The position numbers and the translations under genes are program-made. This document shows, one piece after another, positions 4,129 to 52,186 of a stretch of 64,000 nucleotides of DNA; positions within the stretch are counted from its first letter, which is position 1, and the number at the start of each line of letters is the position of its first letter. Source of the stretch: Arthrobacter sp. UM1 (GTDB lineage: Bacteria > Actinomycetota > Actinomycetes > Actinomycetales > Micrococcaceae); the NCBI RefSeq assembly GCF_020483305.1, contig NZ_JACWAB010000006.1:62001-126000 (forward strand), written 5' to 3'. The notes beneath the pieces are model-generated. The model made no database searches. It worked only from the letters and a program-made list of their open reading frames with translations, and was not told the DNA's origin.

Positions 4129-4203
4129 GCGTCTTGGCGTCCGTGCACCGTCACGCAAACGACCCGGCTGCAACGTGGGAGCGCCTTCCGGCTCAGCGCC
4201 GGA

Positions 4204-18974: not shown

Positions 18975-19744
18975 CCCCGGGACAGGACCGCCCGCCCCGG
19001 CATTCGGGCTTCGCGGCCCTGCTGCCGCACGGCGTGGAGGTCTCCGAGACGGGGATTGACTTCCCGCCCGCGCGGCCCAACGCCCAGGAGGAGGCGCTGG
19101 TGCGGGAGGCCGTCGGGAAGCGACGCAGGGAGTTCGCCGAGGGACGCGAGTACGCCCACGCCGCCCTCCTGCGCCTCGGCCGCCCGGCGAATGCGATCCT
19201 CCGCGGGGAGCGGGGAGAGCCGCTGTGGCCGGAGGGCGTAGTCGGGAGCATCACGCACTGCGAGGGGCACCGGGCGGCCGCCGTCGGGCTCGAGGGAGAC
19301 GTGCGCTCCCTCGGGATCGACGTCGAGCAGAACGAGCCGCTGCCGGAGGGGGTGCTGGAGATCGTGCTCGCGGCGGACGAGTCGCGGGAGGAGCTCGCGG
19401 CGCTCGGAGAGGCGGCGCGTCGGCGGACCGGGCACCCGGTCAGCGCGGAGCGGCTGCTGTTCAGCGCCAAGGAGTCCGTCTACAAGGCGTGGTTCCCGCT
19501 GACGGGCCTGTGGCTCGACTTCCACGAGGTGACGGTCCGCTTCGGCGAGGACGGGACGTTCGCCGCGCGGATCCGCCGTGACGCGGGGCCGATTCCCGAG
19601 GGCGTCCCGGGGCAGATGCGGGGCGCCTGGAGCGCGGAGGCGGGGCTGCTGAGGACGGCGGTGGCGGTCGGGGCTCAGGACTGGGACGGCGCGAGCTCTC
19701 GGCCCAGCCAGCTCACTAGAGATGCAAGGTTCTTCCACAGGTAG
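18971..19744 (+). CDS. 4'-phosphopantetheinyl transferase, Sfp/EntD type
   Basis: 257 residues. Moves phosphopantetheine from CoA onto the active serine of carrier (T) domains. Motifs: REYAHAALLRLG near 58, WPEGVVGSITHCEG near 85, GIDVEQNEPL near 115 (Mg-binding Asp/Glu) and FSAKESVYKAWFPL near 168 (Glu/Lys). EntD-like SITH and HCEG order suggest the actinobacterial PPTase group. It shares a transcript with the pirin gene. Its C-terminus overlaps the convergent type II thioesterase by 70 bases, so the last 23 or so residues are encoded over foreign-looking DNA. Proximity suggests it activates the six NRPS carrier domains, though such enzymes often serve the whole cell. Confidence 0.92.
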   Translation: MTPGQDRPPRHSGFAALLPHGVEVSETGIDFPPARPNAQEEALVREAVGKRRREFAEGREYAHAALLRLGRPANAILRGERGEPLWPEGVVGSITHCEGHRAAAVGLEGDVRSLGIDVEQNEPLPEGVLEIVLAADESREELAALGEAARRRTGHPVSAERLLFSAKESVYKAWFPLTGLWLDFHEVTVRFGEDGTFAARIRRDAGPIPEGVPGQMRGAWSAEAGLLRTAVAVGAQDWDGASSRPSQLTRDARFFHR

Positions 19745-20433
19745 AAGTGATCCCCTTCGAAGACTTTGACTGTAACAGTGCCTCTGGTCAGCCGACTCCA
19801 CCCCATGAGGGAACTCACCTCAAGATCCTCGTCGGCGCTCCCGCCTGCCAACAGCAAGTTAGCGGACACCGAGACGCCATCGTCTGGCCTGTAGTCAGAA
19901 AGAATCCGGCAATCAGCGCGCAACGGCTTAAGAAGAAAGTCCCGAGTCGCATCTCCCTCAAGAGCGCCGCTTGGAAGATCGGCGAGCTGCTCGAGAGCCC
20001 TCACAGACGCCAAGTCATCGAGATGCCGGGCTACCCGTTCTCCGGCCATCTGAGGCGGCGCACTGGCAGATGCTACAAGGCTAGCCACGCCAAAACCCCT
20101 CAACTCCGCCATACGGGTTGCCTCAAAAGCCACCACGGCCCCCATGCTGTGACCGAAGAAGGAGACCGGACGGGAATCAGACCAGTCGACAGCGTCAACG
20201 ACTTCCCGAGCAAGGGCAGCCACCGACTCCGGCAGAGTGTCATCCCACCTGTCAAGACGCCCTGGATACTGGACGACCCACACATCATATTCTTCAGCCA
20301 GCAGTTCTGAGAACCTGAAGAACGATGACGCATTCCCCCCGGCAAAGGGAAACAGAACAATGCGATTTCCATCGCGCGGCCCCTCATGAAACCTGCGAAG
20401 ACATGAGCTTGCTGGTTCAAAGTGATCAGTCAT
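19675..20433 (-). CDS. Type II thioesterase of the NRPS cluster
   Basis: 252 residues, alpha/beta hydrolase of the editing thioesterase family that removes wrong acyl groups from carrier domains. LFPFAGGNASSFFRFSELL near 27-45, nucleophile serine in FFGHSMGAVVAFE at residue 96, LAGGSADEDL near 200 and the catalytic histidine in FEGDHFYLWKN near 225. ATG at 20433 is preceded by AGGAAG, so I reject a longer form starting 36 bases upstream. Last gene of the minus-strand cluster, 8 bases after the permease stop, convergent with the PPTase. Confidence 0.92.
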   Translation of the reverse strand: MTDHFEPASSCLRRFHEGPRDGNRIVLFPFAGGNASSFFRFSELLAEEYDVWVVQYPGRLDRWDDTLPESVAALAREVVDAVDWSDSRPVSFFGHSMGAVVAFEATRMAELRGFGVASLVASASAPPQMAGERVARHLDDLASVRALEQLADLPSGALEGDATRDFLLKPLRADCRILSDYRPDDGVSVSANLLLAGGSADEDLEVSSLMGWSRLTRGTVTVKVFEGDHFYLWKNLASLVSWLGRELAPSQS

Positions 20434-20441
20434 CGTGCTTC

Positions 20442-22529
20442 CTAACCGCGGTTCTCGTTTGCAGGCCATGAGCGTCCGGCAGGGAGCGGAACGCCGTCCT
20501 CAGCGCGAGTCCCGACGCTCCGGCGCGCCCTGACGGGCGGTTCATCCGGCTCCGCGCAACGCGGCTTCTGAAAGGGCGCTTCGCTGCCCTCTCTGAGCTT
20601 CGGAGCAACCACCAAAATAGGCACGATGGCACTCACCAGCATGAGAGCGATTATCACCAGCAAGGCGCCGAATGGGAAAGAGCCGAGGTGGGCTACAGGG
20701 CTTTTGAACAGTCCTATCCGGACGACCAGGTCCGTCCCCCAGACGATGAGACTGCCTACCGCGCACCCCGCCCCAGTCACGATCCCGGCCCACCAGAGCA
20801 GAGCAGAGCGTCGCTGACCGCTTGTCATTCCAATGCGAGCCAGAGCTTCGATTTCACCCCTGCGGGTGGAATACCACATGAGGACTGCGTTCGTGACGGC
20901 GAGCATCGAGAAGACACCGGCCGGCAGCAGCACTACCGCCACACCCTTGACGCTGTTGGCCGCATAAGCTCGCGCAGAGTCATCAGCCCAAGCATCGACC
21001 CCCTGAGCTTGTCCCACAGCGCCGCTCTTTTCTAGACGTTCAGCCAGTCCCTCGGGGTCGTGGCTTGTGAAATAGGCTCGCTCCACCGTCCCCCCAGGCA
21101 TATGCTTCGCAGCCCATTCCCGTCCAAGCATGACCTGAGGAATTAGATCCGAGCTCCCGCCGACAATCGCAACGATCGGAAGCGAATGCCGCTTACGATC
21201 CGGTGTCACGAACGTAAGAGTCTGCCCTACTCGATAACCGTCGTCAGCAGCCTCTTGGCGACTTAGCGCAACGCCGCCGCTACGAATTCGACTGAGGTCG
21301 CCTGCAACCACGACGCCGCCTCGTGTCTTGGCCATCGCTTCCGGATCGATTCCTTCAGCATTCAGCTCAAGGGCAGTATCTCGATCCGTAGCGACAACAA
21401 CCTGCCTAAGTGGAGCGTCAACGGCCCCGGCTCCCAGCCTCTGCGCGCCTTCCGGCGAGAAGTTCGGATGGATGGCAGTAGCCACAACATCGGCCTTCAC
21501 CTCGGCTCGAGTAGCTGCATTTGTTGCATATGCATCCGAGGCGAGCGTTGCTGTCACAGCCCCGGCGATGCCGACAAAAAGCACCGCGGGCAACGCGACG
21601 ACGGGGACAGCGTCGCGACTCGAACGCGCAGTCTCTGCGCCAAAATGGGCGACGGCGCTTGGGCGAACAGCCTTGACCACACCTGCAATCATATTTACCA
21701 CTGCTGGAATAAGGACGGGCGCAAGAAGAGCGACACAGAGGCCCATGGCCATCGGCAGAAGGAGTCCAAGCCCGACTGCACCATCGCCAGGAGAGCCCGA
21801 CGCAAGAAGTCCAAAGCCGCCGATGCCCATGAGTCCGAGCAGCGCGAACAGCCAGCGGCGTCTCGATATCCGGCGGGCAGGGATGATGTCGCGGCTGGCC
21901 AAAATAGGCGTGACGTCCAAAGCCCTTCGGGAACCCCGACGCGCGCCGAGGACCGAGACTCCCACGGTCACGAGAACCGTCAAGACAATCCCCAGAAGTG
22001 AAGGGGAATGCCTGAAGTCCGCTGACACGTACCCAGCTGCCCTGAGCGCCGAAAGAACCGGCGGAGCGAGGAACACGGAAATGATCGAACCGGCCAGAGA
22101 AGCGACAAGAGCCAGCGCCGCCACCTCGGCGCTCAACACCTTCCTCAGGACCCCTGAGGTAGCACCGAGCAAACGCAGAGCGCCAAGCTCTTTCACACGT
22201 GCGACCACGAGATACCCCACAGTCATCGAGAGCGTGGCTGCGGTGAGAAACAAGCAGACGACACCGACGGTGCCTGCGACGGAGAGCAGGTCCTCACGTC
22301 CTGAGCCCATCGGCGAATAGTGCTCCGTCGCCGCTCCTAGATTCCCATCGTTGTCCAGAGTCCCGCTTCCCGTGATGAGGACATCGAACCCGCCGTCGGG
22401 CGTCGAGAACGCAGTGATGAGGAGTTGCATGCAGGCACCAACGATCGATGATCCCACGAGAAGGGTGACTAAACTACCCAGAAAAAGAAGCCAGTGCTTA
22501 CGGACAGTTGCAAAGACCCAGGTCAGCAT
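20442..22529 (-). CDS. ABC transporter permease, FtsX/MacB-like
   Basis: 695 residues with two FtsX-type halves, each with about four helices and an extracellular loop: N-terminal helix VRKHWLLFLGSLVTLLVG, helices around residues 85-180, 225-290, and a C-terminal set near 520-650. Start ATG at 22529 has GGAG eight bases upstream and follows the ATPase stop by 4 bases; an upstream GTG would overlap the ATPase by 26. With the ATPase and two-component system it resembles peptide-resistance or envelope-stress exporters, so self-protection is the likely role. Confidence 0.86.
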   Translation of the reverse strand: MLTWVFATVRKHWLLFLGSLVTLLVGSSIVGACMQLLITAFSTPDGGFDVLITGSGTLDNDGNLGAATEHYSPMGSGREDLLSVAGTVGVVCLFLTAATLSMTVGYLVVARVKELGALRLLGATSGVLRKVLSAEVAALALVASLAGSIISVFLAPPVLSALRAAGYVSADFRHSPSLLGIVLTVLVTVGVSVLGARRGSRRALDVTPILASRDIIPARRISRRRWLFALLGLMGIGGFGLLASGSPGDGAVGLGLLLPMAMGLCVALLAPVLIPAVVNMIAGVVKAVRPSAVAHFGAETARSSRDAVPVVALPAVLFVGIAGAVTATLASDAYATNAATRAEVKADVVATAIHPNFSPEGAQRLGAGAVDAPLRQVVVATDRDTALELNAEGIDPEAMAKTRGGVVVAGDLSRIRSGGVALSRQEAADDGYRVGQTLTFVTPDRKRHSLPIVAIVGGSSDLIPQVMLGREWAAKHMPGGTVERAYFTSHDPEGLAERLEKSGAVGQAQGVDAWADDSARAYAANSVKGVAVVLLPAGVFSMLAVTNAVLMWYSTRRGEIEALARIGMTSGQRRSALLWWAGIVTGAGCAVGSLIVWGTDLVVRIGLFKSPVAHLGSFPFGALLVIIALMLVSAIVPILVVAPKLREGSEAPFQKPRCAEPDEPPVRARRSVGTRAEDGVPLPAGRSWPANENRG

Positions 22530-22533
22530 CCCC

Positions 22534-23277
22534 TCAACTCCAGATATGATTGACCGCACGCGAGATTTGATCAGGATCTCCGCCTCTCACGACGTCAGCA
22601 ATCGAGCCATCCGACATCACCACGACATCATCCGCCCAAGCAGCTGCCACCGCGTCATGAGTCACCATGATGGTGGTGGATCCGAGTTCTGATGCGGACT
22701 GACGCATGAGGGCCAAAACATCACGGGCTGTCCGACTGTCCAAAGCACCCGTCGGCTCGTCTGCGAAGATCGTGCCAGGTCGGCTGGCGAGTGCACGGGC
22801 AATAGCCACCCGCTGCCGCTGACCTCCGGAAAGCGTTCCGATTGGAGAACGCGCCTTATCAGCGAGTCCCACACGCTCCAAAGCGCCGCGAATGTCTGAG
22901 GTGCTCAATGGGCGTCCGGCAAGGCGCTGAGGGAGCGCCACGTTGCCATGAACGTCGAGGGCTTCAAACAAGTTGTAATCCTGGAAGATGAAGCCACAGG
23001 TGTCTCGCCTGACCAGGGCCCTATCGTCTTCGTCCAGCCCCGTCAGCGAATGCCCATCCAAGGAAACTGATCCGGAGTCCGGGACATCCAACCCGCAGAG
23101 ACAGTTGAGAAGTGTCGTCTTCCCTGACCCAGACGGCCCCATGATCGCCGTAAATGATCCGGGGCGAAAAGCATACGTCACGCCCCGCAAAACGGCCTCT
23201 GACGACCTATCTCCGTACGATTTAACGACACCCTGTGCGGATGTCACTCCTCTGGACTGAAGGTGGTAAATGCTCAT
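22534..23277 (-). CDS. ABC transporter ATP-binding protein, LolD/MacB-like
   Basis: 247 residues. Walker [19 protein letters not shown] near 50, Q-loop [14 protein letters not shown] near 95, signature [17 protein letters not shown] near 145, Walker [15 protein letters not shown] near 168, and H-loop VTHD near 203. The sequence is typical of ATPases partnering FtsX-like permeases. I use ATG 23277 (GATGGAG upstream, short spacing); a TTG 21 bases earlier is possible. It follows the response regulator after 69 bases, the largest gap in the lower cluster apart from MbtH-NRPS, so a local promoter is possible there. Confidence 0.88.
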
Positions 23278-23346
23278 GACTCCATCAAATCGGCCCAAGC
23301 TGTTTTAGTCATTAGCCTCAGGGCCCGATCGCGGGTAGCGCTGACG

Positions 23347-24075
23347 CTACCCTCCCCCCTCTTCATCGGAACGGCTTCGAAGATACGTGAGGACTGCCGA
23401 GACGCGACGATCCACCTTCTCCTTCATCGGCAGCTTGGCGAAGATGCTGCCGACGTGCTTGCGCACAGCTGCTTCCGAAACCCAAAGCCGTTCAGCGATC
23501 GCGCCATTTGTCTGGCCCTGTGCCATCAGCTCCAGCACCTCTAGTTCCCGAGGGCTCAGGGCCGACAACCCAGCATATTGACGAGAGCGCCGCATCAAAG
23601 CGTGGACGATGTCGGGATCGATGATGGTCGCTCCCGCCAGCACGCCTTCAATCGCTGAGATGAAAGTCGCCACGTGCCCCACCCGTTCTTTCAGGAGGTA
23701 GCCGAGGCCACCGCTTGCATCCTGGTCCAAGATCTCCGGCAGGTACGCCACGGAAGCATATTGGGAGAGAATTAGCACAGGCATCTCAGGATGCTCACGG
23801 CGCAGGCAACGAACCGCCCGCAGCCCCTCGTCAGAGAAGTCAGGCGGCATCCTAACATCCGTGACAACAAGGTCTACGTCCGCTTGTTCAAGACCTGAGT
23901 GAAGGTCCTCCGCGTTGCCCACAGACAACGCGATCTCACACCCAGCCCTAGCCATTACAGCTGAAATTCCCTCTCGCAACAGGGGAAGATCTTCCGCCAG
24001 CGCCACTCTCACAAGCTCTCCTGTCGGTGTGCGCAGTTGTGGCACCCGACCGCCCGCCTCTTCGACAGAACTCAA
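23347..24075 (-). CDS. Response regulator, NarL/LuxR family
   Basis: 242 residues. Receiver domain from about 22: acidic pair AEDLP near 27-31, phospho-acceptor Asp73 in LVVTDVRMPP, conserved Lys in GYLLKERVG. The C-terminal LuxR helix-turn-helix is LSPRELEVLELMAQGQTN through WVSEAAVRKHVGSIFAKL. Starts at a TTG (24075) that overlaps the kinase stop and has a strong GGGGAGG six bases upstream. Partner of the histidine kinase; probably controls the ABC exporter or the cluster. Confidence 0.88.
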   Translation of the reverse strand: MSSVEEAGGRVPQLRTPTGELVRVALAEDLPLLREGISAVMARAGCEIALSVGNAEDLHSGLEQADVDLVVTDVRMPPDFSDEGLRAVRCLRREHPEMPVLILSQYASVAYLPEILDQDASGGLGYLLKERVGHVATFISAIEGVLAGATIIDPDIVHALMRRSRQYAGLSALSPRELEVLELMAQGQTNGAIAERLWVSEAAVRKHVGSIFAKLPMKEKVDRRVSAVLTYLRSRSDEEGGG

Positions 24076-25415
24076 TCCATGCCTCCCCTTGGGACATCCG
24101 AATCAAATTCATGAACAGCAACTTCTCTGGGGCTGCTCGCCTCCAGCGGGCAAGACATCACCACGGAAGTACCACCACCCTGCCTCGGGCCGATCCGGAG
24201 ACTTCCACCCAACGCCGACGCTCGAAGTTTCAATCCTTCCAGACCACCTCCCGGCCGCGACCTCGCTCCACCGACCCCATCGTCGTCGATCCTCAGCAAC
24301 CATTCTCCTCCCTTCACTTCGCCGACTACTTCTGTACGGGAAGCCTCTGCATGCTTCATCACGTTGGCCAAGGCTTCACTCACCACAAAATAGCTGACCT
24401 GCTCCACCCGTCGCGGGAGTCGAGAACTCGTTGGAAGATCGACACAAACATCACCCGGAAAGTCGGCTATGAGATCCTGGACGGCGGGCGTCAGCCCGCG
24501 TTCCGTGAGAGCCCTTGGCAGGATGCCTCGGATCGTCTGTCTCAACTCGGCTAATGCTTCGTCGGCTTGTCTATGCGCATGGGAAAGCATCTGTCTCACT
24601 GTCTCGTTTTCGGCATTCGTCTCTGCAAGCCCCAGGCTCATCGCGAGGGCAACCAGCCTGTGTTGAACACCGTCATGCAACATTCCTTCAATACGACGCC
24701 GCTCCGTGTCGAACGCGTCCAGAAGGAGATCCCGCGAAGCTCGAAGCTCCAAGGCCTCGGCCTCCGCATCCTCAAGCCGAGAAACAGTCAGGGACCTGTA
24801 AAAGCCCACTTGGACAAGAGCGAGTCCCGTCGCTGCGTAGAGGAACCCTGCAGCGGCGGCGATCGAGAGGAAACAGAGAAGATAAGCCTCACCATCACTC
24901 CTCACCACCCAGTCGAAAATGCTGATCGAGTCCCAGCGAATGAGGAGAGGTGCGAGTGCTAGGCCTGCGACAGTCACCGACGCTAAGAGGAGAAAGGCGA
25001 CGCTAACGGGGGCAAAGAGGAGTCCTGCTGCGATCGCGACTCCCACGACTGTCCTGCCGTCGCCTTCCCCATACCCTCGACGCAGCCTGCAGGCCAGGAC
25101 TGGATCTACCAGATCAGTCTGCAAGGCCAAGAGACGCGACGCGGCCCGGGCTAGCGGCCCAGACCCCACCCCAGACGCCAAGAGGACGGCAATCGGAAAC
25201 GTGGATATCAGGATGAACGGGCCCGCGACAGCAGTCGCCAGGACAAAGAGCAATGCCCTCCACGGCGACGATCCACGGAAAAAGACATGGGGCAGAGCCA
25301 ACCGGATCGGTGGCCGCGATCCGCACGAGCCGCGCAAACCAGCGCCTGGCTTGTTCAGCCAAGGGTCACTCGAGTGCGAGTCCACCAACCAACGTCTCGG
25401 CATAATCGAAGACAT
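24072..25415 (-). CDS. Sensor histidine kinase (HisKA_3/NarX type), start uncertain
   Basis: About 447 residues in this model. N-terminal membrane sensor with helices near FFRGSSPWRALLFVLATAVAGPF, VVGVAIAAGLLFAPVSVAFLLL and LLCFLSIAAAAGFLYAATGLAL. Then a coiled linker, the H-box ERRRIEGMLHDGVQHRLVAL with the phospho-histidine, N-box YFVVSEALANVMKHAEAS and G-boxes IDDDGVGGARSRPGGGLEGL. Ends overlapping the response regulator. The first 17 codons overlap the mppR-like gene and look unlike a kinase; a neighbouring frame reading ARRWFARLVRIAATDP looks more like coding sequence there (see findings). Confidence 0.82.
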   Translation of the reverse strand: MSSIMPRRWLVDSHSSDPWLNKPGAGLRGSCGSRPPIRLALPHVFFRGSSPWRALLFVLATAVAGPFILISTFPIAVLLASGVGSGPLARAASRLLALQTDLVDPVLACRLRRGYGEGDGRTVVGVAIAAGLLFAPVSVAFLLLASVTVAGLALAPLLIRWDSISIFDWVVRSDGEAYLLCFLSIAAAAGFLYAATGLALVQVGFYRSLTVSRLEDAEAEALELRASRDLLLDAFDTERRRIEGMLHDGVQHRLVALAMSLGLAETNAENETVRQMLSHAHRQADEALAELRQTIRGILPRALTERGLTPAVQDLIADFPGDVCVDLPTSSRLPRRVEQVSYFVVSEALANVMKHAEASRTEVVGEVKGGEWLLRIDDDGVGGARSRPGGGLEGLKLRASALGGSLRIGPRQGGGTSVVMSCPLEASSPREVAVHEFDSDVPRGGMD

Positions 25416-26193
25416 ATCCCTTTCCGATCTCGATGGGCTCAAGGGAAGCGAAGTCCGGGTCCAGGACGTCCTGGAATGTAACGTGTGCATCCCCAGCCAG
25501 GATCTCGGAGAACTCCACCCCCTCCACGTGGGAAGTCATCAATGGCCAGTCCTTCCGGCCCTGCTTCTCGTTGAGCTCTGACATCACCCACGGCGGCTGG
25601 ACTCTGCTGTGCACAAGAGGAACATCGTGCAGAAGCGGCCTCTCTCTGACCGGCGAAGCCGCTTCGACAGAGAGGTCGATGACCCTACGGCCTTCCACTG
25701 ACAGAGTCCCGGTATAGTTCCCAGACCCTCCGGGGCGAGGGCCGGTGCGGCCCACACGCTTCGGCCGCGTGGTACCAATTTCGCCAAACTGCTTGGGCAT
25801 ACCCTGCAACCAACCACGCATCATGGGGACGGCACTGTCTACCCAAGCATAGGGACATCTCGCCAACGCCCGACCGTTGTACTCACATCGAAGGAGGACG
25901 AGAAACTCGCCGAATTGGGACGATCGGGGTTCCCGAAGCTCGCGCCCGCTTGTCGAACACCATGCCCAGTCCGCAAAGACGAAAGCGGCGGCCCCAGGGT
26001 CAGCTCCCAAGTCAAGTTCAGCAGGAAGGAACGAGCGGGCCGCATCCGGGTCGACTCGTAGCTCCACCATAGTGACCTCGCCCGCGAAATGCCAGGGCGG
26101 CGGCGTCAACATGGACGAGACGCCTGAAGGCGAAAGAGGAAGACTGTACCCCCGCGGGCTATCCACGGCTTTGCTGTTCTGCCTCGTTTTCAT
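25366..26193 (-). CDS. mppR: MppR-like cyclase (acetoacetate-decarboxylase fold), enduracididine pathway
   Basis: 275 residues of the acetoacetate decarboxylase superfamily. I recognise the MppR-like subgroup from LPLSPSGVSS, TPPPWHFAGEVTMVELRVDP, the Schiff-base lysine in QGMPKQFGEIGTTRPKRVGR (residue 134), VPLVHSRVQPPW and the C-terminal PIEIGKGYVFDYAETLVGG. Known role of MppR: it cyclises 4-hydroxy-2-ketoarginine to the keto form of enduracididine. ATG at 26193 follows AGGTGG. Sits directly after the MppP-like gene (47-base gap), matching the paired genes of mannopeptimycin and enduracidin clusters. Assignment is by motif memory, not a search. Confidence 0.78.
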   Translation of the reverse strand: MKTRQNSKAVDSPRGYSLPLSPSGVSSMLTPPPWHFAGEVTMVELRVDPDAARSFLPAELDLGADPGAAAFVFADWAWCSTSGRELREPRSSQFGEFLVLLRCEYNGRALARCPYAWVDSAVPMMRGWLQGMPKQFGEIGTTRPKRVGRTGPRPGGSGNYTGTLSVEGRRVIDLSVEAASPVRERPLLHDVPLVHSRVQPPWVMSELNEKQGRKDWPLMTSHVEGVEFSEILAGDAHVTFQDVLDPDFASLEPIEIGKGYVFDYAETLVGGLALE

Positions 26194-26240
26194 GGTCTCC
26201 ACCTAGTCTCTTCGGTTGCGGACTCTCACAAACGTCACGT

Positions 26241-27422
26241 TCATCCCCGCTCCAGCACCTCCCGGATCCGGCGGACGCTGAGCGCCAGGTTCTCCGGATC
26301 ACGTGCGAGGGCAATCCTCAAAGACGTGTCCCCTTCCTCCGGTCGGGCCCAGTGAAACTTGTGGCAAGGGAGAACATAGACACCGGAGTCGGCCAGCTCA
26401 GACCACACATCAGAGGACGACCGGCGCTCCATGAAGACCCGCTCAACACTTCCGTAGACCTCATCGCCCTCATGGGTAACTCCGTCGAGCCCTCTCAGCC
26501 CCTCGCGGACGATCTCGCGGTTTTCGGCGATGAATTTCTGCAGCTCTACGAGACCCCCAGCGGTTCCGTCTTCGGCGAACCGGCGGACGAGCGTGAGAAT
26601 CATGGGCGAGACTCCGAGGAGAATATCCGAGTAAACCTTCCCGACAGGGAGATTAAGGTTCGCGGATGTAACCAGCCAGCCGACCTTGAGATCAAGCGTC
26701 GGCCACAGTTTGCCTGTGTCTTCAACGACGGCCCATCGGCAACCGCTGTTCTCGAGAATCGAGTAGTGATCGTACTGCGCACGTGGGTCGAATCCTCTGA
26801 ATGAGGTGTCGAGGCACAAGACAGCGTCAGAAGCGGCACAAATTTCAGCCAGCATGCGCAATCGCTTCTCCCCGAGGACTCGACCGGTGGGGTTGTTCGG
26901 AGTCGTGATAAACACAGCACCGACGCTCTGGACAAGGTCCTCAACCCGCGATCGCTCCCCTCCATGCAGCAGCTCTTCCTCGAATGGAACAAGATTGATA
27001 TGCATCCCCTTGAGAATGTCCGGGATGTTGTCGAACGTCGGGTGTACCAGTGCGAGCGAGGACACCTCCGTCGCCAGTGCTCTAGCAAGGATCTCCATGG
27101 CGACGGACGACGCATAACAAGCGAAAATCCGGTCCTTGTGTTCGGCCGGGTATCCCGTCTGGCCGAGCATGCCGAAAAAGGCACGGTGCGCCCTGTACTC
27201 CAGCTCGTCGACAGGCGTCCGCTCAGATTCGCGGAAGACAGCGGGAAGATCGTCGATGATCGCCGCCTGAGAGCGTGTCTGCTTCTGCCTGGCGTGGCCG
27301 TCGGCCACATTCGTAACGTGACAGTTGATGGCGGCATACTCGAACTCAGTCAAGTTGGCCTCTTCTACGTCAACCGTTCCCGACTTGATGTTCACAATGA
27401 GACGTGAGTTCTCAACAGTCAT
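26241..27422 (-). CDS. mppP: MppP-like PLP-dependent L-arginine oxidase/hydroxylase
   Basis: 393 residues, type I aminotransferase fold. It closely follows the MppP/RohP arginine-oxidase family: NVADGHARQ near 38, VHPTFDNIPDILKG near 126, TTPNNPTGRVL near 173, DTSFRGFDPRAQYDHY near 205, the PLP lysine 238 in VVEDTGKLWPTLDLK, KVYSDILLGVSPMIL and LPCHKFHWA. MppP uses O2 without other cofactors to turn L-arginine into 4-hydroxy-2-ketoarginine, the first step to L-enduracididine. There are about 20 additional N-terminal residues. It starts within the transporter stop (ATGA). Confidence 0.85.
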   Translation of the reverse strand: MTVENSRLIVNIKSGTVDVEEANLTEFEYAAINCHVTNVADGHARQKQTRSQAAIIDDLPAVFRESERTPVDELEYRAHRAFFGMLGQTGYPAEHKDRIFACYASSVAMEILARALATEVSSLALVHPTFDNIPDILKGMHINLVPFEEELLHGGERSRVEDLVQSVGAVFITTPNNPTGRVLGEKRLRMLAEICAASDAVLCLDTSFRGFDPRAQYDHYSILENSGCRWAVVEDTGKLWPTLDLKVGWLVTSANLNLPVGKVYSDILLGVSPMILTLVRRFAEDGTAGGLVELQKFIAENREIVREGLRGLDGVTHEGDEVYGSVERVFMERRSSSDVWSELADSGVYVLPCHKFHWARPEEGDTSLRIALARDPENLALSVRRIREVLERG

Positions 27423-28732
27423 GGCCTCTCCATATCTTTCGTAGTTCCGTTGTGGGTCTCAGCCACTGCACCGGTCGTGGTCGGCTGGTGAGCAGTGAGC
27501 TTGGAAATCCTCCGGATGGTCGGAGAAACTGTTGATGCAACGGCGACGATAGCCAGCCCCCCGGCCGCCGCTGCGAACGGGCTGACGACACCTCGCGTCG
27601 AGACCAGCACCGCCCCAAGGAGGGGCCCAGCGGTGGTGGCGAGACCTGTCGCCACACCTGTGAGGCCGCTCAGTCGCCCCCTCAACTCGTCTGGAGTGAC
27701 GAGAAGCTGGTAACCCATGACGGTCGTGAAAGCAGTCGGGACAAAGAAGGCGACAAGCCCGAGTAGTATCCCGAGGAAGATGTCGGCAGGCACCAGCGTC
27801 ATCGCTGCCACAAGCGTCACCAAAAGCCAAGAGAACCCGATGATGACCACCGAAGGCCTCATCAGTCTGTGAAGTCGCTCAGCGGCTAACGACCCAAGCA
27901 GTCCACCCGCTCCATAGAAGGTCATCATGATGCCGATTCCTCCGGCAGAGGTGTTGTTCTCACCGGCCTGGCTGAGCACGACGACCACGAGCCCAGTCGT
28001 GAGCAGCTGAGAAGAGCCAATCCACAAGATCGTGGCCCTCAAGCCAGAGTGCTTCAGAACCCACGTGATCCCCGACCAAGAGGACCCTTCCCTGCTCAGG
28101 TCCGACCCATCGTCTTTCGTCATAGCCGACTCTGACCGACCATTGGACGGAAGACGGAGAAGCGCAAGGGCAAAGAGGCTGAGCCCGATCACCCCTGTGT
28201 CAACGACGAACGGGAGCGCTGTATGAACGGCAAACAGGACGCCACAGACGGCCGGTCCCAGGAGGGCGGCAAGATAGGTCCGCGAGGTATTCCGAGCCAG
28301 CGCGGCGACGAGCTGAGACTTCCCCACAACGCTTGGCAAGGCGGCGTCTTCCGCCGGCGCAAAGGCCGAGGCGAGCGCTCCCTCCAGCGCTGCCACGAGG
28401 ATCAGGACAGGGAAGGAGTAGCCACCGATCACTAGCACCATCGCAAAGGACCCGAGGACAGCAAAGCGAAGTAGTTCGGTGAGGAGCATGATCACCTTGC
28501 GTGAAAGCGTATCTGCAAGAAGCCCTGCCGGGATCACCCCGAGAATCTGCGCTGCCCCGTGCACTGAGGCCACTGCACCCAGCTCCCACGGAGACCCTGT
28601 CGTGCTGAGGATGATCAGCGGGAAAGCCAGATAGGCAATCTCCGCCGCGACCTCCGAAACGAAGCGGGAGGACCACAGAATTGTGTAGTTCCGATTCCGA
28701 CTAAGCGGAAGAGCCTGCTCTTCTTCAGTCAT
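27419..28732 (-). CDS. MFS transporter, probable peptide exporter
   Basis: 437 residues, 12 membrane segments, of the MFS_3/enterobactin-exporter-like type common in NRPS clusters. RNRNYTILWSSRFVSEVAAE at the first helix, GLLADTLSRKVIMLLTELLR in loop 2-3, FAPAEDAALPSVV near helix 5, and PDELRGRLSGLTGVATG near helix 11. Start ATG 28732 overlaps the serine-hydrolase stop by 4 bases and its own stop overlaps the mppP-like start, so it is translationally embedded in the biosynthetic operon. Export of the peptide is inferred from context. Confidence 0.86.
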   Translation of the reverse strand: MTEEEQALPLSRNRNYTILWSSRFVSEVAAEIAYLAFPLIILSTTGSPWELGAVASVHGAAQILGVIPAGLLADTLSRKVIMLLTELLRFAVLGSFAMVLVIGGYSFPVLILVAALEGALASAFAPAEDAALPSVVGKSQLVAALARNTSRTYLAALLGPAVCGVLFAVHTALPFVVDTGVIGLSLFALALLRLPSNGRSESAMTKDDGSDLSREGSSWSGITWVLKHSGLRATILWIGSSQLLTTGLVVVVLSQAGENNTSAGGIGIMMTFYGAGGLLGSLAAERLHRLMRPSVVIIGFSWLLVTLVAAMTLVPADIFLGILLGLVAFFVPTAFTTVMGYQLLVTPDELRGRLSGLTGVATGLATTAGPLLGAVLVSTRGVVSPFAAAAGGLAIVAVASTVSPTIRRISKLTAHQPTTTGAVAETHNGTTKDMERP

Positions 28733-30060
28733 CGGCTTTCCCTCCGATGGGCGGTGCGGCCGCTGAACTGGAACAGGTCCCACTCCCCGCCCGGATTGCT
28801 CTGGAGGAAACTGCCCCAGGCAAAGGGATTGTCGACACGCTCGCTGAGAATCCGAAACCGTCCCCCGCCCTCGTGACGAGCCTGTGCAGGAGTCTCACCG
28901 GCGAATCCGAACGACAGGCCACTCTCCCTCACAGTGACATGCACCTCGTCCGTGCCGTTGCGGAACACTCCGCCGAGCTCTTCAGGGAGCGTACTCTCCG
29001 GTGCGCTCGGCCCTAAGACGGGCTGCGCATCGGGGCAGAGCACGGCGGCGGTGTCGAGCCACGCATCAAGTCCCTGGGAAGAGTTCACGGTCAGCGCTAC
29101 ACCTCTGCCAGTTGCGGGATGGAAGCGCACATGCGCCCAGGCCCCGTCCGCCGTGCCGTCGTGGCCAAACCATTCGAGCCCCGGGCCGAAGCGGGCCCAT
29201 CCCAGCCCCCAGTCGTCCGCAATGCCGAACGGACGGCTTGATGGACTTGCCGTCCCGACATGAGAGCCAACCTCACTTGGCCCCTGAGCGAATGCCTTCT
29301 GTGCGAATTCAAGAAGTCCCGCGGCACTGACCGTCAAGGCCCCGGCTCCCTGCTCTGCCCGATCGAGGGACTGAGTAACGGCTCTGGGGGCACCGGCGGG
29401 GCCGAGGACGTGGCCAACCGCAACCGGGCCCGGAACACCTGTCCCGCCTGCCAACCATCCTGTGTGAATACCCATCGGCTCGAAAAGCATCTCGGCTGAA
29501 CACTGGCCCCAGGGCAGACCATAGAGCTCCTCAACGATGCAGCCAAGAACCGAATAGCCGAGATTGGAGTACGAGAAGACCTCCCCAGGGGCGTAGACTA
29601 GACCGCCCTCACGAACACACGATCGGGCAAGGCCTGAGAGGTTTCCGTGTCGCCCTTGCTCAGCAGTAGTGTTCGAGGCGAACCCTCCTCGATGGCTGAG
29701 CACCTCTGCGAACGTCGGCCAACGGCTCTGTCCCGAATCCAGCCCCCTGAAAATGGGCATGACTTTGTCGACCCTGTCTTCCAGGCTCAACTCACCGTCT
29801 TCGGCAAGCAGAAACAGGAGAGCCGCCGTGGCAGTCTTCGAGACGGATCCTGCGGGAAACAGGGTGTCCCCCGCTACAGGCATCCCGCACCCCGATTCGA
29901 GCTCTCCGAAGACGGCATTGCGCAAATCGCCATTTTCGCCGATGACACTCAACTGCGCACCTGGGATTCGATATCGCCGACAAACCTCTTCGAGAAAAGT
30001 TTCAAGTTCGCCGACATCGGGGACGCCATTGGGTAGCGGCGCCCCAGCAAAGCTGCTCAT
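28729..30060 (-). CDS. Penicillin-binding-protein-type thioesterase (SurE-like trans-acting macrocyclase)
   Basis: 443 residues, class-C beta-lactamase/PBP fold. Catalytic set: Ser72-Val-Ser-Lys75 in PAGSVSKTATA, Tyr164-Ser-Asn166, and His300-Asp-Gly302 in WFGHDG, followed by a C-terminal lipocalin-like extension. No signal peptide, so it is cytoplasmic, unlike true PBPs. Its ATG overlaps the NRPS B stop by one base. NRPS B ends in an epimerase and lacks a thioesterase. Stand-alone PBP-type thioesterases such as SurE of surugamide release and cyclise peptides ending in a D-residue from exactly such lines. A resistance beta-lactamase is less likely given size, location and lack of export signal. 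Confidence 0.85.
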   Translation of the reverse strand: MSSFAGAPLPNGVPDVGELETFLEEVCRRYRIPGAQLSVIGENGDLRNAVFGELESGCGMPVAGDTLFPAGSVSKTATAALLFLLAEDGELSLEDRVDKVMPIFRGLDSGQSRWPTFAEVLSHRGGFASNTTAEQGRHGNLSGLARSCVREGGLVYAPGEVFSYSNLGYSVLGCIVEELYGLPWGQCSAEMLFEPMGIHTGWLAGGTGVPGPVAVGHVLGPAGAPRAVTQSLDRAEQGAGALTVSAAGLLEFAQKAFAQGPSEVGSHVGTASPSSRPFGIADDWGLGWARFGPGLEWFGHDGTADGAWAHVRFHPATGRGVALTVNSSQGLDAWLDTAAVLCPDAQPVLGPSAPESTLPEELGGVFRNGTDEVHVTVRESGLSFGFAGETPAQARHEGGGRFRILSERVDNPFAWGSFLQSNPGGEWDLFQFSGRTAHRRESR

Positions 30061-33000
30061 TAGCTGTTCCCCCTGTCCTCGGCTTCTGCCGTGAGCGCAG
30101 CTGCCGCTCCTGAAATTGCCGCTGCTAACTGGTCAGATAGGTCCTGCAGTGCCCCACGGCTGACAGCGCTAGCGTCACCGCGGAGCTCCCAACACAGAGC
30201 GCCGTCCTCGACAGCGGCAATCAATTCCAATGAGTGGCTCGGACCGTGTACGGGATGCATGGGCTCACCAATTCCTTGCAGAATCCGCACGACCCTCCCG
30301 CCCTCGCTCTTACCCACGTCTCCCTTTGAAGTCCGCTGTCCGTGGAAGTTGAACAACACAGTCGAAGCCGTCGGATCCACGATGGCGACATCGGCTACCG
30401 CCGAGTTGCGTGCGAGGACGCCGAAGCCGACTCCTCCTGCCGGCACTGCGCGCAGAGCACGTCTGGCGGTCCTCAGTCTTTGAAGCCACGTGTCGTGGTC
30501 GTCGTCACAGCGGAAGGTGACCGGGTAGATCACTGTGAACCAGCCCATGGAGCGAGAGAGGTCAGCTCCAGCCATGAGATCCTCTCGGCCATGAGACTCA
30601 ATGTCGATGTCAAATGTGTCTGCCCCGCTCCAAGTGTGAAGCGCCCAAGCGAAACACGAAAGAACCGCATCATTGACTCGCATGCGCAGCCGCCGAATAG
30701 ATCCGGCCGTGAGCATGCGAGTCCGCTCTGCCGAAACGGCTCCGGTAACTGTGACCTCTCCCGCTGCATCTGAGGGCAGGGCAGCGCGACCGGGAAGCGG
30801 AACAGGCCTTCGAGAACCGGCCCAGTACTCTCTCTCGTGTTCGAACTCACCGGACTCAGCAGCCTCATTGAGGAACTGCGCCCACACGCCGAAAGACGCG
30901 GGAAGCACGTCACCAGTTCTTGGCGGCCCGTCTGGGCCCCCACTCAGCTCCTCCAACAGCACTGTCCACGAGACAGTATCGATAACGAGATGATGGACGG
31001 AGAGGTAGAGCAACGGACGGTTTCGGGTGAAAATCCACAAAGCGGCAAGTGGCCCGTCGCCGAATGCACTCTCCCTATCCAGCCCCCGAGCCAACTGTTC
31101 AGCCTGACAAATGAGCGGGCTCTGCAGGTCATCGGGGTCACCCTCGAACTCGGACAGATCAGCCGTCACCCACCGAACGGGAACCGGTACCTCCGGAATA
31201 CGCTGACGAAGCAGCCCGGAGTCCTCGTAGACTTCGACTCCCAGGATGGGATGCTTCCGCTGAATCTCTTCGATCACGCCAAGCACTTCGGAGGGTTTTG
31301 CCCCCGCGTCAAGCTCAAGAAGGACGGACTGCCGATACTGCGCTAGATTCGGCCGGGCCGACTCGACCAGACTTCTCTGCATCGGGGTCCACGGAATCTC
31401 GCCCATGCCGTCTCCGTAGGCTTCCCCACTGTCGGTAGAAGCAGAGGCGCGGAGGGCCTCGGCGATTCCCGCAACAGTCTGGTGGACAAAGATGTCTTTT
31501 GCGGTGAGCGCGTACCCGGCTTCCCTGGCCTTGAACACGAGCTGGATGGCGAGGATCGAGTCTCCGCCCAGATCGAAGAACCCGCTGTGGGCATCGATAT
31601 GGGAATGGGGCACGCCAAGGACGTTCGAGAAGAGGCCCACGACCACTTCTTCCCGCGGCCCCAGCGGTGCGGACTCCCCTTCGGCGGGCTCTATTCGGAT
31701 CTCAGGCAGCAGCCGTCGATCGACTTTTCCGCTCCTGTTGAGAGGCAGTGCATCGAGCACAGTCACCACCGCAGGGACAGCTTGGGCAGGAAGCTGACGA
31801 GCAGCCTCCTTCTTCACTTGAGCGCCCGTCAACGCGGAATCCCGTTCGACGACCACGTATCCGCACAGCATCTGACCACGTGCGGGATCGGAACGGACCA
31901 ATGCTGCAGAGGCGACGACGCCCGGCACGGCCCGCAACCCGGCTTCCACCTGTCCAAGCTCGATCCGGTGGCCTCGGACCTTCACCATGTCGTCAGCCCG
32001 CCCTAGGAAATGGAGCAGACCGTCACCAGACCGGCGAACAACGTCAGCCGTCGCGTAGACCATTGGCGTACCACGGCCTTCCGACTTTCTTCGAGAGGCG
32101 TCGGCGTCTGTCCATCGGTCCGGCTGGAAAGCGAGACGGCTCTCCTCCGCTCGGTTCGCGTAGGCTCGGGCCACGCCTTGCCCCCCGATAAGCATCGTGC
32201 CGGGTACCCCGTCAGGAACAATCCGGCCTCGCTCATCGACAATGTAGACGGGTGTTCCCGGTGCCGGCCGCCCGATGGACACCAGACCGCCTGCACCGTA
32301 AGCGGATTCCCCTTCAGCTCGGATATCGCACAAAGTCGCGTCAACCGTGTTTTCAGTCGCACCGTAGGCGTTCACGACTCGAGTTTCAGGCCCGATCCAG
32401 GCAAGCAGGGACCGGCAATCTGCCGATTTCCAGCCCTCCGACCCCACGGCCAGAATTCGCAGGCTGTCAAGGCGCTGCCGCCGCCAGGCGAGCTCTTGGC
32501 CGATGAGAGTCGCTAATGACGGAACAGTGACAAGCAGGTCGGCTCCGCTCCGCTCCAGAGCGTCGACCAGCCGACTCGCGTCAAGGGCGTCCTCACGCGA
32601 GCAGACGACCATCCGTCCTCCCATAAGGGTTGACCAGATCAAGTCTCCGATGAACAGATCGACCGTGAACCCGGATACACACAGCGCTGTCGGCGAAGTC
32701 CCCTCGAGACCGTAGTACTGGTCCCAAAGGCGTGCCAGGTGCGCCAGGCTTCGGTGAGAGACGACAACGCCTTTGGGCCTTCCCGTCGAGCCAGAGGTGT
32801 ACATGATGTAGGCGACGTCGTCGCTCGCCGGTCCGGGGCAGGAGGACGCAACGAGTCCGGTGCCGGAGACCGCCCCGCCAAGCCTCACGACCTCCGTTGT
32901 TTCCGGGAGAGCCACTTTCGCTCGCCCCTCAGTTTCGTCATCGACGATCACGAGAAGCGCTCCAGCATCAGACACCATGAAGGCAAGCTCACTGTCTGGA

Positions 33001-36000
33001 ATCCCATCGCCTAGAGGCAAGAACCCTGCCCCAGCGCGCATGACGCCCAACATCGAGGCGACGCTGTACTTGCTTCGCCGTATCCAAATTCCGACGATGT
33101 CCCCACGGCCCACGCCTCGGGAGGAGAGCGCCGCAGCAACAGCCTCCGACTCTGCCACGAGATCGCTGAAGGTCCACGACCCGTCATCGTCTGTAACTGC
33201 CGCCGAGGCAGGTGATTCCTCGGCCCAGCGGTGAAGACGCATGAGGAGCGTCTCGTCCAAACTCTCAGGCTCGAAGGCCTTCGGCACCCGGCTCACAGCC
33301 AGATGCTCTTCGTCCGCGCCGAGCAGGGGAAGAGTCCCCAGTTCATTTTCGGGCGCTTGAGAGACCTGATCAGCCACCAGCCGGATGTGCCGTGCCATCT
33401 TCTCCACAGTCGACTTGTCGAACAGCGCCGTGCTGTAGCCAATCCGGCAGCTAATGCCCGCTGACCCAGCATCCGTGAAATCGAACGCAAGGTCGTCTGA
33501 GACTTCCGCCCCTTCGAGGTCGACAGGGGCCACCTCAATTCCCGCGTCGAGGAGGGCTCTCGGAGTATTCTCAAGAGTCACCATCACATCAACGAGAGGG
33601 TTGCGGCTCGGGTCCCTGTCGACATCCATGAGGTCAACGAGCTCGTCGAAAGAAATCCTGTGCTCGACAACGTCCAGGAATGCTTCCCGCGCCTTTCGAA
33701 CAAGAGTTCGGAAGTCGACATCCTCATTGCAGTCCAGCCTCAGAACCGCAGTGTCCACGAAGAAACCGACACGATTTTGGGCCCCCGCCCCCTCTCTATT
33801 CGCCAGAACTGTCCCCACCGTGACGTCCTGCTGCCCGCAGAACCTGGCGAGCATGAGCGTCGTCACAGCGACTAGCGAAGGAAATAGTCCGCTGTTCACG
33901 TCGGAAGCGACGCGGCGCAGACCTTCCGCCGTTTCTGCGGGGATTTGGAACCTGACCTCACGCCCAAGAGAGCTTCGCAGCTCAGGGCGAGGGCGATCGA
34001 CAGGGAGGCGGAGCGGAGTCATCCCCTCGAGACGAGCCTCCCAATAGGCTCTGGCCTCTTCGTGTGCGGCCTCTGAAGCGGCCTGAGCAAGAAGGGCGCA
34101 GGGCCGCTCAGCGGACTCGGACGACTCTGGCGCCCAAGCGTGCATCTCGGTCTGCGCTGCATACGCTCTCGAGAAGTCGCGGGCGATGATCCCCATCGAC
34201 CATCCGTCCGTCACGATGTGATGGACGACAAGTACGAGGTGGTCTGTGCCTCCGGCGGGAGCACGGAGGAGGAGACACCGCAACGGCGGTCCAGCTCCAA
34301 GATCGAAAGGCTCGGCCTGAGCCTCTCCCGTAGCTGTCGCAAGCGACACAGTCTGAAGACTACGTTCTTCGATTTTCGGCGCCCAGGAACCTGCTGGCAG
34401 TTGGCGCAAGACAGGACGGCCGCTCGACTCCTCAACTAACGTGCGCAGTGCCGGATGCCTATCGACGACGCTTGCCAAGGCAGCAGAGACTGCACCGAAT
34501 TCGAAACCGTCCGCGCGCCTGAGAGTAAGAACGGTGTTGTACTCGGCAGACTTGGGCGAAAGTTGCTGGTGGAACCAGAGCCTCCTTTGCGCAGCCGTGA
34601 GCTCAGGCTCACTGGCTACCGAATCGGACACTGCCGTTCCACAGTCGACGGATTTTCCGGAAGCAAGATCGGCTTTCTTCGCTGCCGCGTCCAAAAGACG
34701 GGCGAACGAGGCAGCGGACGGCGAATCAAAAACCTGGCGCGGGCTGAACCGATGTCCGGTTCTGCGTTCGACCTCGGTGACGAACCGCAATGCATCGATC
34801 GAGTTTCCTCCTTGCGAGAAGAAATCGGCGTTCGCTTCCAGTTCGCCTTCTGACATGCCCAGAACATCCGTCCAGGCACGGGCAGCGATCTCCTCCCATT
34901 TGCCTGACGGGAGGCGTCCGGTAACCTCTCTCATCTCGGCGTACGATGTCTTGTCGTCATCGGCGGCCAACGCCTCAAGCGCCGAGAAGTCCAGCTTGCC
35001 ATTCGGGGTAAGCGGCCAGGACTCCACCATGACTACTTCGTCCGGAACTTCGTACGCCGGGAGGATCGCTTCTGCTCGTTCCCGCAAGTTCCGTGAACTG
35101 CTCTCCTCCCCCTTCGTTTCTGGACGGACGAACGCCACAAGTTGGCGTCCGTCGCCCCCGGCATCCTTCCCGGATCTTCCCCGCACTCGGACAACAGCCG
35201 CCTGCACCCCATCAAGAGACTCGAGAGCCTTCTCGATCTCGCCCGGCTCTATTCGGAATCCTCGCAGCTTAATCTGATCATCAACACGGCCGTGGTAGGC
35301 GATCTCGCCATCGCTGTTCCACGCAGCCCTGTCGCCAGTCCGATACAAGCGCTCACCGGTCCGGAACGGTGACGCAATGAATCGTTCCGCCGTTTGATCT
35401 GGTTGCCCAACGTAGCCGAGCGCCAACTGAGGACCACCCACGTAGAGGTCGCCTACAACCCCTGCGGAAACAGGCTGGAGAACGGAGTCAAGCACATACA
35501 CTTGAGTCGCAGACATCGGGCTGCCGATCGGCACAGCGTCTGGAACAGCCTCCCCCGGGAGAAACCTACGGCTCGCGGCGAAAGTCGTCGTCTCAGTCGG
35601 ACCGTAGCCGTTGACCAAGGTGAGCTCAGGAACCGCTGCACGCAACTGCCGCAAGACAGTGCTCTGCGCCGCCTCTCCACCGGTCCACAGCTCCTCAAGG
35701 CCTGTGAACGCGTCAACTGCATCTGCGACAAGCGCACGCAAGAGTGAAGTCGTCATGAATGTGAGCCTGACCCCTTGGTGCTGCACTGCATGCCGCAGCG
35801 CAGTGGGGGTCATCTCTCCCTCAAGCAGGACAGCACACCCTCCTGTGAGAATTGGAACCCACAGCTCGAGATTACTTGCGTCAAAGGCCAGAGGGGAGTG
35901 AACGAGCGTCCGCTTGGCCTGTGGTGTGGCGAAAAGGGGATCTGCGACGAACGATGAAAGTGCGCGGTGTGAGACTGCTACCCCCTTGGGCCGCCCTGTT

Positions 36001-39000
36001 GACCCCGAAGTGTGCATGATGTAGGCAGGTGCGTCCGCCGTCCGTACTGAACGTGTCGCCAACGCCGTGCTAGGCCCAACGAGTAGGGCAAGGCTGTCAT
36101 CCAGCCCCCCTGACCCCTGCAGCTCCCATTCCTCACCGGTCAGTGAAACCGCTTCGTCTGCTCTCCCAGCGCTTGGCTGGTCAGTGACGATGGCTCTGAC
36201 GCCTGAATCCCGAATGATTCCCGCGATCAAATTGGGAGGAGCCGACTCGTGAAGCGGCACCCACGCGCCGCCGACGCGGAGGATGCCGAGCAGCGCAGCC
36301 ACCACTGGGCAGGAACGTCCTGCCAACACAGCCACACGGTCTCCTGCACCGATTCCGTACGCTCGAAGAGCATCCGCGCACTGCCGAGACGCGGTGTCAA
36401 GATCCCGATAGGTCCAGGTCTCATCTCCATGTACCAGAGCAGGCTCGGAACGATGAGAGGCCGCGACGCGCGCAAACCTCTCGTGAACGGCCTCCGCGCT
36501 CTCCGAGTCCCCTCCCTCGCCGAGTGCGGTCAGCTCACGAAGTTTCTGCTGACCAAAAACTGTCCGCCGACGGAAGCCATCATCACTCTGCCCCCACTCA
36601 CGCAGCGTCTCCGTGAGATCGCTCAACAGTTCTTCGGCGACGCAAGACGGGATCAACTCGGGGTCAAAGCCCATAGTCACCCCCAGGCGTTCTCCGCCCC
36701 CGGCCGTCAGCGACAGTGCGAAGGAGGTGTCCTCTTCACCTCTCAGATCCACAACTCTCGGACCGGCCTCGGAACCTTCGGTCACCGGGTAGTTCTCGAA
36801 GACTGCGAGAGTGTTGAACAACTGCTCCCCCGCGCGACAGCCTGCTGCCCGGTTGATCTCATGCAGTGGCACGAACTGATGAGCTTCCGCCTCCATCTGA
36901 CGCATTTGGAGGGTCCGCAGCCATTCTCCCGTCTCCGTGCCCTGGGTGACATTGACCCGTACAGGCACAGTATTGATGAACAGGCCCACCATCTCCTCGC
37001 TCCCCGGTACATCAGGGGTCCGACCAGACATCGTGGTACCAAAGACGACCTCACTACGCCCCGTGTGGGCTGCGAGCACGCGCCCCCATGCGGCCAGAAA
37101 TACGGTGCTCATCGTGACTCGCTCACGACGTGCCCTCTCGATGAGGCTGTCAGTGTGTTCGCGGGATAACGCAGCCTCTGCCCTCGCAGAGCTTCGTCCC
37201 TCAGCGCCAGGCAACAGAGTTCCGGGCAGCGGCGTTGCCCCATCAATGCCTGCGAGGGCCTCGGTCCAATAAGCTATGTCAGAGGCGGTGTCCCTGCACC
37301 TGACCCAATTGGAGTACTCGCCAGTCCCCTCACGGCGCCTCGCACTTCCCGGCTCGCGATACTCGTCCAATACGTCGCCTAGAACCTTGGCAAAACTCCA
37401 GCCGTCAACCAGCAAATGATGGCAACCCCAAAGAATCTGCACTTCGGAGTCACTCAGCCGGACTATCGCCAGCCGGGCCAGAGGCCCCTGGGAGAGATCA
37501 CCAGGGACTGAGCACCTGTTACGTGCCGCCAAGACCGAGGCGATTGCCTCTTCAGCCCCTCGTTCACGTAGGTCAAGCTGCTCCACCGGAAGCTCTAGCT
37601 CCGAGCGGACAACCTGCACCGGCGCGGTGAAGCCCGCCCAATGAAAAGTCGCCCGAAGGGCAGGTGTCTTCTCAAAAACCGTCTTCCACGCCTGCGCCAA
37701 GCGCTCAGGCTCGTCGATTCCCTCAAGACGTGCCTCCATGACGCTCATGTAGACGTCATCTTCTTCATCGTCCCGCCGGGACCCCACGGAGTGGAACAGC
37801 ATCCCTTCCTGCATGGGCGTGAGCGCAGCGACCTCTTCGGCATCCGAGACGAGTTTGAACAGCTCCTCGACTTCAGTTTTTGGCAACCCGGAGCCAGGGA
37901 CACCCGACGGCTCCTTAGCCCAGTGCCCGAGGATACGCACAATTGCAGACATCAGGGGCTCCGACCCAGCTGCCTCTTCGGCATCACCCGCAACAAGTCC
38001 GATGCGCAGACGACCCTCATGGAGTGCCACAGTGACATCCAATCCCATCCCTGTGGGTCGAGTCTCGGGATCTGTATCGGCATGTCCGAGAATGAGGGAT
38101 CCCTTTGACCGATGCGCATCGATCCGCCCCAGATAATTGAAAGAAATACTCGGCTCCGTAGCTTCTGCCAGCACCTTCTCTCTCGCGATGTATCGGAGCG
38201 CGCCGTACCCAAGCCCGTGGCTGGGCACTCCCCCAAGCGTTGTAGCGACCGCCTGCGCCTTCTCCTCAGGACCGCCCCCAGAGAGAGGCTCAAGCACCAC
38301 TGGATAGAGCACAGTGAACCACCCCACTGTTCTCGAGAGGTCTGCTCCCACGGGCCAGCCGAGCTCAGAGTCCAACTCCGTCTCACGGCCGTGCCCCTCC
38401 ATCAGAACAGGCACAGCGGAAACGGAACGGACCTCGCAATAAGCCTCAGCAAAAGCCGCGAGAAGCAACGCTTCCACCCCCGCACCAGACTGAGCGGCAA
38501 TGTCGAAGAGCCTGCGAGACTCCGCAACGCCCAGATCGTGCTCAGCTGCGCAGGGCGACACTTGCTCGACCGGCCTCCGAGAATCCTCGACTTGGGAGGA
38601 GATCTGCCTCCAATACGAGGCCTCTCCGTCGAAGCCCCCTCTACGAGTCACGTCTTCCAGCGTCTCGGCCCAGGCCGCCGCACTCGTAGTTCGTGCATCG
38701 AACTCGGGTATTTCACCACGCGTGGCGGCGAAATAGGCTCTTTCGAGATCTTCCAACAGGATCTGCCACGAAACTGCGTCGACGACCCAATGATGGGCGG
38801 CGATAGCAAGCAAGCCTGGGAAACTGCCGAAACGGACCAGCTCAGCGCTGAAGAGAGGGCCTCTTTCGAGGGAAAACGGCCCCCGGCTCCTGGACACTGC
38901 GTCCCTTTCAACTGATTTCGCGTCCGAACCGCGGAGTTCGCCCGCCTCGACAACCGTCAGCAACCTTCCGCCCATTTGATTTCCGAAAGGCTGGATCTCA

Positions 39001-52098: not shown

Positions 52099-52186
52099 TG
52101 ACACTCCAAAGATCAGGAAATTGGATTGCAGCACATAGATTTCTACGTCCCGTCATCCTGAGACAGGACACGACTAGGCAGGCCTC

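Follow-up and report, generated by a model that had tools for sequence, protein, structure and literature searches.

The protein of 443 amino acids encoded at 28729-30060 of the window, the whole 64,000-nucleotide stretch of Arthrobacter sp. UM1 DNA analysed here, is very probably the trans-acting macrocyclase of a nonribosomal peptide synthetase (NRPS) made up of two proteins and six modules. The gene cluster comprises the following features (End, enduracididine; TE, thioesterase).

42547-52134, minus strand: NRPS A, 3195 amino acids, A1-PCP / C-A2-PCP-E2 / C-A3-PCP by domain mapping
30060-42554, minus strand: NRPS B, 4164 amino acids, C-A4-PCP-E4 / C-A5-PCP / C-A6-PCP-E6 by domain mapping, with no cis thioesterase
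39504-40940, minus strand: A4 domain, adenylation code DLGAAGAVDK, enduracididine type
37875-39194, minus strand: E4 epimerase domain (EGHGRE, HHWVVDA), end approximate
34950-36476, minus strand: A5 domain, adenylation code DALFWGGTFK, hydrophobic residue (uncertain)
31719-33236, minus strand: A6 domain, adenylation code DLGVAGAVDK, enduracididine type
31461-31658, minus strand: PCP6 (GGDSI) by domain mapping, carrier of the finished hexapeptidyl thioester
about 30063-31394, minus strand: terminal epimerase domain E6 (NRPS B residues about 3721-4164), with HHLVIDT (HHxxxD) and ESHGRE
28729-30060, minus strand: stand-alone PBP-type thioesterase (SurE/MppK type), from PF00144, SurE and Ulm16 matches, predicted fold and catalytic residues
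27419-28783, minus strand: MFS exporter whose gene overlaps that of the TE; its position resembles that of MppL, and its identity to the Rhodococcus homologue is 47%
26241-27422, minus strand: MppP-type L-arginine hydroxylase/oxidase for the opening step of enduracididine synthesis (TIGR04462, 1.2e-127, 425 bits, slightly below the NCBIfam cut-off of 450 bits)
25366-26202, minus strand: MppR-type cyclase/dehydratase, second step (TIGR04460, 6.8e-112, 373 bits, slightly below the NCBIfam cut-off of 380 bits)
24072-25490, minus strand: histidine kinase
23347-24075, minus strand: LuxR-type response regulator
22534-23298, minus strand: ABC ATPase, by inference for export or self-protection together with the permease below
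20442-22559, minus strand: FtsX-like permease
19675-20469, minus strand: type II (editing) thioesterase, alpha/beta hydrolase (PF00975, 1.2e-36)

The TE open reading frame begins with ATG and shares a single base with the stop codon of NRPS B (TAATG), an overlap that the preliminary description had reported correctly, along with the motifs Ser72-Val-Ser-Lys75, Tyr164-Ser-Asn166 and His300-Asp-Gly302. On alignment, Ser72, Lys75, Tyr164, Asn166 and His300 correspond to Ser63, Lys66, Tyr154, Asn156 and His305 in SurE numbering, and the same alignment pairs Gly240 with the SurE pocket residue Gly235 and Arg435 with SurE Arg446. PF00144 (beta-lactamase, 5.9e-44) is the sole Pfam domain, and a sequence search of the PDB returned SurE first (6KSU, 2.6e-45), followed by Ulm16 (4.9e-30) and the esterase IS11 (4e-26), with DD-peptidases and class C beta-lactamases ranked lower; the matches to PF00144 and 6KSU lie far beyond anything that chance could produce. 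Inspection of the N-terminus, MSSFAGAPLPNGVPDVGELETFLEEV..., by eye reveals neither a signal peptide nor a hydrophobic stretch, in agreement with the earlier claim, and the export signal of an exported DD-carboxypeptidase or beta-lactamase is likewise not seen by eye in MSSFAGAPLPNGVPDVGEL. A stand-alone protein, cytosolic by its N-terminus and adjoining an NRPS that has no cis thioesterase, fits the SurE family.

Among solved structures, the peptide cyclases SurE and Ulm16 come closest to the TE, a cytosolic serine hydrolase of two domains. An AlphaFold model built with 48 homologues (mean pLDDT 87.5, pTM 0.90) predicts a hydrolase domain and, C-terminal to it, a second domain rich in strands (364-439), and VIA alignment of the model over residues 10-440 gives Z scores of 43.1 with Ulm16 and 42.0 with SurE, the predicted C-terminal part matching their lipocalin-like eight-strand domain. 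Most ordinary S12 enzymes align to the model only up to about residue 344, that is, over the first domain, the main exception being the esterase IS11, which aligns over both domains with a Z score of 37.2. A two-domain build, a stand-alone position and closure of L-first/D-last chains define the PBP-type TEs (Matsuda review, PMC11735501).

A domain search found no thioesterase domain after E6 of NRPS B, confirming the preliminary description, which had this protein ending in an epimerase domain without a cis thioesterase; the feature range given there, 28729-31100, holds for the gene and falls short at its end, as the E domain extends as far as about 31394. NRPS A and B are expected to form a hexamodular line whose domains would give a chain of L-D-L-D-L-D configuration. 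With module 1 lacking an E domain, module 6 carrying an intact E6 and NRPS B ending in PCP-E without a TE, such a chain would fit the L-first/D-last rule of the PBP-type TEs (PMC11735501). In the C3 domain of NRPS A (residue 2295, about 45245-45265), PHALLDG replaces HHxxxDG; a dead C3 was considered and set aside, and the domain is treated as active because its second, catalytic histidine is retained.

Adenylation codes were numbered with a GrsA fragment as the ruler and read DALWMGCIFK for A1, DPLIIGAVLK for A2 and DGQSGGLILK for A3. The A4 and A6 codes are of the type found in the beta-hydroxyenduracididine module of mannopeptimycin (DL-V-GAVD), a type whose fourth position moves with the alignment. 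From these codes and the neighbouring MppP and MppR genes, D-enduracididine is expected as the last residue of the chain at release.

The MFS exporter, MppP, MppR and an End-type A domain together reproduce the surroundings typical of the MppK branch. Of the full MppP, MppQ and MppR set of the mannopeptimycin-type enduracididine pathway, only mppP and mppR are present; mppQ, the gene for the final transaminase, is absent from the window cluster. In the other fully read clusters, the Rhodococcus sister included, mppQ lies between mppP and mppR, which are here separated by only 38 bases (26203-26240), and elsewhere in the genome the best homologue is a class I/II aminotransferase at only 33% (G000:C1:14445-15506). 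Enduracididine supply would therefore depend on another transaminase, a need that lends some weight to the alternative in which arginine is the substrate of modules 4 and 6 and the ring is closed by the cyclase at D-Arg, as does the Asp at code position 331, which shows only that a basic side chain is likely. This alternative is nevertheless unlikely, for mppP and mppR are kept intact and the code type occurs once in every MppPQR cluster with a readable NRPS, including that of mannopeptimycin, whose enduracididine content is established.

With enduracididine as the substrate of modules 4 and 6, the assembly line would deliver L-X1, D-X2, L-X3, D-End4, L-X5, D-End6, the last residue being epimerised on PCP6 by E6. 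Ser72, activated by Lys75 and Tyr164, would accept the chain from PCP6 to form an acyl enzyme. The side chain of D-End would occupy the pocket around Gly240, Arg435 would hold the chain carbonyl, and the L-X1 amino group would attack to yield a head-to-tail cyclohexapeptide. A search around SurE Gly235 for a pocket residue marking cationic C-terminal specificity found none that splits enduracididine clusters from the others. There is a slim chance that hydrolysis is instead the only or main way in which the TE releases the chain, the product then being a linear hexapeptide with D-enduracididine as its last residue: PBP-type TEs can hydrolyse poor substrates, as in the case of the PenA tetrapeptide with a cyclisation to hydrolysis ratio of 1:2.7, and the C-terminal residue would be cationic, a kind disfavoured by SurE (PMC11735501). 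Yet a chain that is L-first and D-last accords with the rule for cyclisation, the catalytic and Arg446-equivalent residues are conserved, and the product of MppK-type clusters built in the same way, mannopeptimycin, is cyclic.

MppK of mannopeptimycin is a SurE cyclase (PMC7459860). In the mannopeptimycin cluster of S. lydicus 103 (7,791,219-7,850,756; PMC5357945), MppB reads C-A-PCP-E, C-A-PCP, C-PCP-E and is followed by MppK, an MFS gene, MppP, MppQ and MppR. The code of MppB module 5, DLSVMGAVDT, is of the same type as those of A4 and A6 in the window, module 6 is without an A domain (the C-PCP spacing is 53-66 amino acids in three such clusters), and MppA module 1 carries a Ser/Thr-like code. 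Taken with the ring order L-betahEnd, D-betahEnd, Ser (PMC5238550), these module readings lead us to infer that MppK closes the mannopeptimycin ring at D-beta-hydroxyenduracididine, and the window TE, with its predicted closure at D-enduracididine, would thus do the same kind of job. The two systems have in common two NRPSs with six modules, an NRPS B with an E end, a PBP-type TE followed by an MFS gene, MppP and MppR, an End-type A domain and a closing residue that is probably of D-enduracididine type. They differ in that MppB has its End code in module 5 and an A-less module 6, whereas modules 4 and 6 of the window have End-type A domains of their own; hydroxylation and mannosylation genes were not found in the window cluster, which also lacks mppQ. 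MppP, MppQ and MppR occur together with an E-terminal NRPS and a PBP-type TE in Amycolatopsis xylanica, Streptosporangium saharense, Microbispora siamensis, a Streptomyces (G677) and Actinokineospora terrae as well, and the three complete six-module clusters (A. xylanica, S. saharense and G677) have the domain order of the window, the A6 region of S. saharense being not cleanly readable.

SurE of surugamide biosynthesis shares with the window TE the catalytic residues, the Gly235 pocket position, Arg446, the two-domain fold and the stand-alone location after a terminal E domain, at an identity of about 31-37%, and differs in its substrates of 8 and 10 residues. SurE prefers neutral D C-terminal residues and disfavours cationic ones (PMC11735501), so the window TE would have to differ from it; WolJ, unlike SurE, accepts D-Orn and D-Arg ends (PMC11735501), making tolerance of a cationic D-end plausible. 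Both Ulm16 (ulleungmycin; about 28-34% identity to the window TE and its top fold match) and WolJ (wollamide) are PBP-type TEs of hexapeptides, with no enduracididine. The window TE, whose highest identity is 36%, is a distant natural homologue with predicted ring closure at a charged D-residue, which SurE handles badly.

In a site-heterogeneous (mixture-model) tree, the window TE pairs with the TE of Rhodococcus sp. EPR-157 (support 96/96), the two together fall on the MppK side of the PBP-type TEs (93/90), and the PBP-type TE family splits from the ordinary S12 hydrolases of related genomes at 100/99. In this free tree, which corresponds to the phylogenetic check against SurE and MppK proposed earlier, the TE lies with the PBP-type TEs, but an AU test with the TE constrained among ordinary hydrolases did not reject that grouping (p 0.175), an outcome put down to the great length of the TE branch, 1.46 where the median is 0.32. 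With the Rhodococcus sequence left out, the place of the TE within the family is unstable, the MppK side not being rejected (AU test, p 0.154). FastTree placed the window TE basal to all PBP-type TEs, a position that was set aside as an artefact of its long branch, since under the site-heterogeneous model the TE moved beside Rhodococcus and MppK. Given this unstable placement, fold, residues and context carry more weight in the assignment than the tree does. That the TE is an S12 esterase, DD-carboxypeptidase or beta-lactamase serving self-protection or another role, with release by the type II thioesterase, is very unlikely, for although the PF00144 superfamily is shared, IS11 also aligns over both domains and the AU test did not reject a grouping with S12 hydrolases, the one-base overlap with a TE-less NRPS, the N-terminus with no export signal seen by eye, the top ranking of SurE and Ulm16 by sequence and fold, and the same gene position in MppK-type clusters and Rhodococcus argue against it. 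An exported carboxypeptidase or beta-lactamase in particular is not favoured by the signal-free N-terminus, the context and the fold ranking.

The nearest relative is an uncharacterised cluster of Rhodococcus sp. EPR-157, fragmented over four contigs (425-428; L191, L192, L193, L194, L175), with the gene order NRPS A, NRPS B, TE, MFS, MppP, MppQ, MppR, kinase, regulator, ABC, FtsX, syntenic with the window and differing from it in having retained mppQ. Identities to the window are 47% for the MFS exporter, 66% for MppP, 64% for MppR, 58% for the regulator, 63% for the ABC ATPase and 44% for the FtsX-like permease, compared with about 33-35% for the TE and about 36% for the NRPSs, indicating that the tailoring genes have changed far more slowly than those of the NRPSs and TE. 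The six module codes match those of the window in order and are near-identical, module 3 letter for letter; the core peptides of the two clusters are therefore probably identical or nearly so, despite the low NRPS identity. Among the strains found, the predicted peptide appears common only to the window strain and this one Rhodococcus strain. A search of the literature collection used here for enduracididine and Rhodococcus nonribosomal peptides found no paper.

The SurE-type arrangement, the D-configured C-terminal residue and the enduracididine-type peptide proposed in the preliminary description are supported by fold, sequence, residues and context. Its further proposal, that the potential substrates of PBP-type TEs are thereby extended to an enduracididine-type peptide, is not supported, because the enduracididine peptide mannopeptimycin is already closed by the SurE-type MppK (PMC7459860); the S. 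lydicus 103 synthetase ends in an epimerase module, with a residue that is probably D-beta-hydroxyenduracididine, and other MppPQR clusters with a PBP-type TE exist. Since the arrangement was known, the understanding of these cyclases is unchanged. The new elements are modest: a predicted family of bis-D-enduracididine cyclohexapeptides in Micrococcaceae and Rhodococcus that is apparently undescribed, a divergent TE in an unusual host, and the missing mppQ. We consider it an even bet that the clusters make cyclohexapeptides of a so far undescribed family, in which L and D residues alternate strictly and two are D-enduracididine, shared by a small-genome member of the Micrococcaceae and Rhodococcus, with a cyclase specialised for the cationic D-enduracididine end and, in the window, a pathway without a dedicated MppQ. 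The cluster offers a lead to an antibiotic-like peptide family, probably undescribed, from outside Streptomyces, and the loss of mppQ makes the final step of enduracididine synthesis testable.

The host genome comprises 2.39 Mb in 17 contigs and is 99.2% complete; its 16S rRNA is 94-96% identical to Arthrobacter records, placing the host in the Micrococcaceae. No comparable TE occurs in any of 59 related genomes, two of the same genus included, and no close TE relative was found among plasmid records. The cluster (19675-52134) has a GC content of 60.6%, against 70-71.5% in its flanks; at third codon positions its GC is about 0.60-0.70, compared with 0.9-0.98 for the genes of the host. This foreign base composition of the whole cluster points to horizontal acquisition by a 2.4-Mb Micrococcaceae genome as the simplest reading. 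A 4'-phosphopantetheinyl transferase gene of host-like composition (18971-19744) directly adjoins the cluster and may serve it. The right flank holds histidine utilisation genes, an aromatic amino acid lyase and a urocanase (56995-58626 and 61206-63005), which are ordinary host genes.
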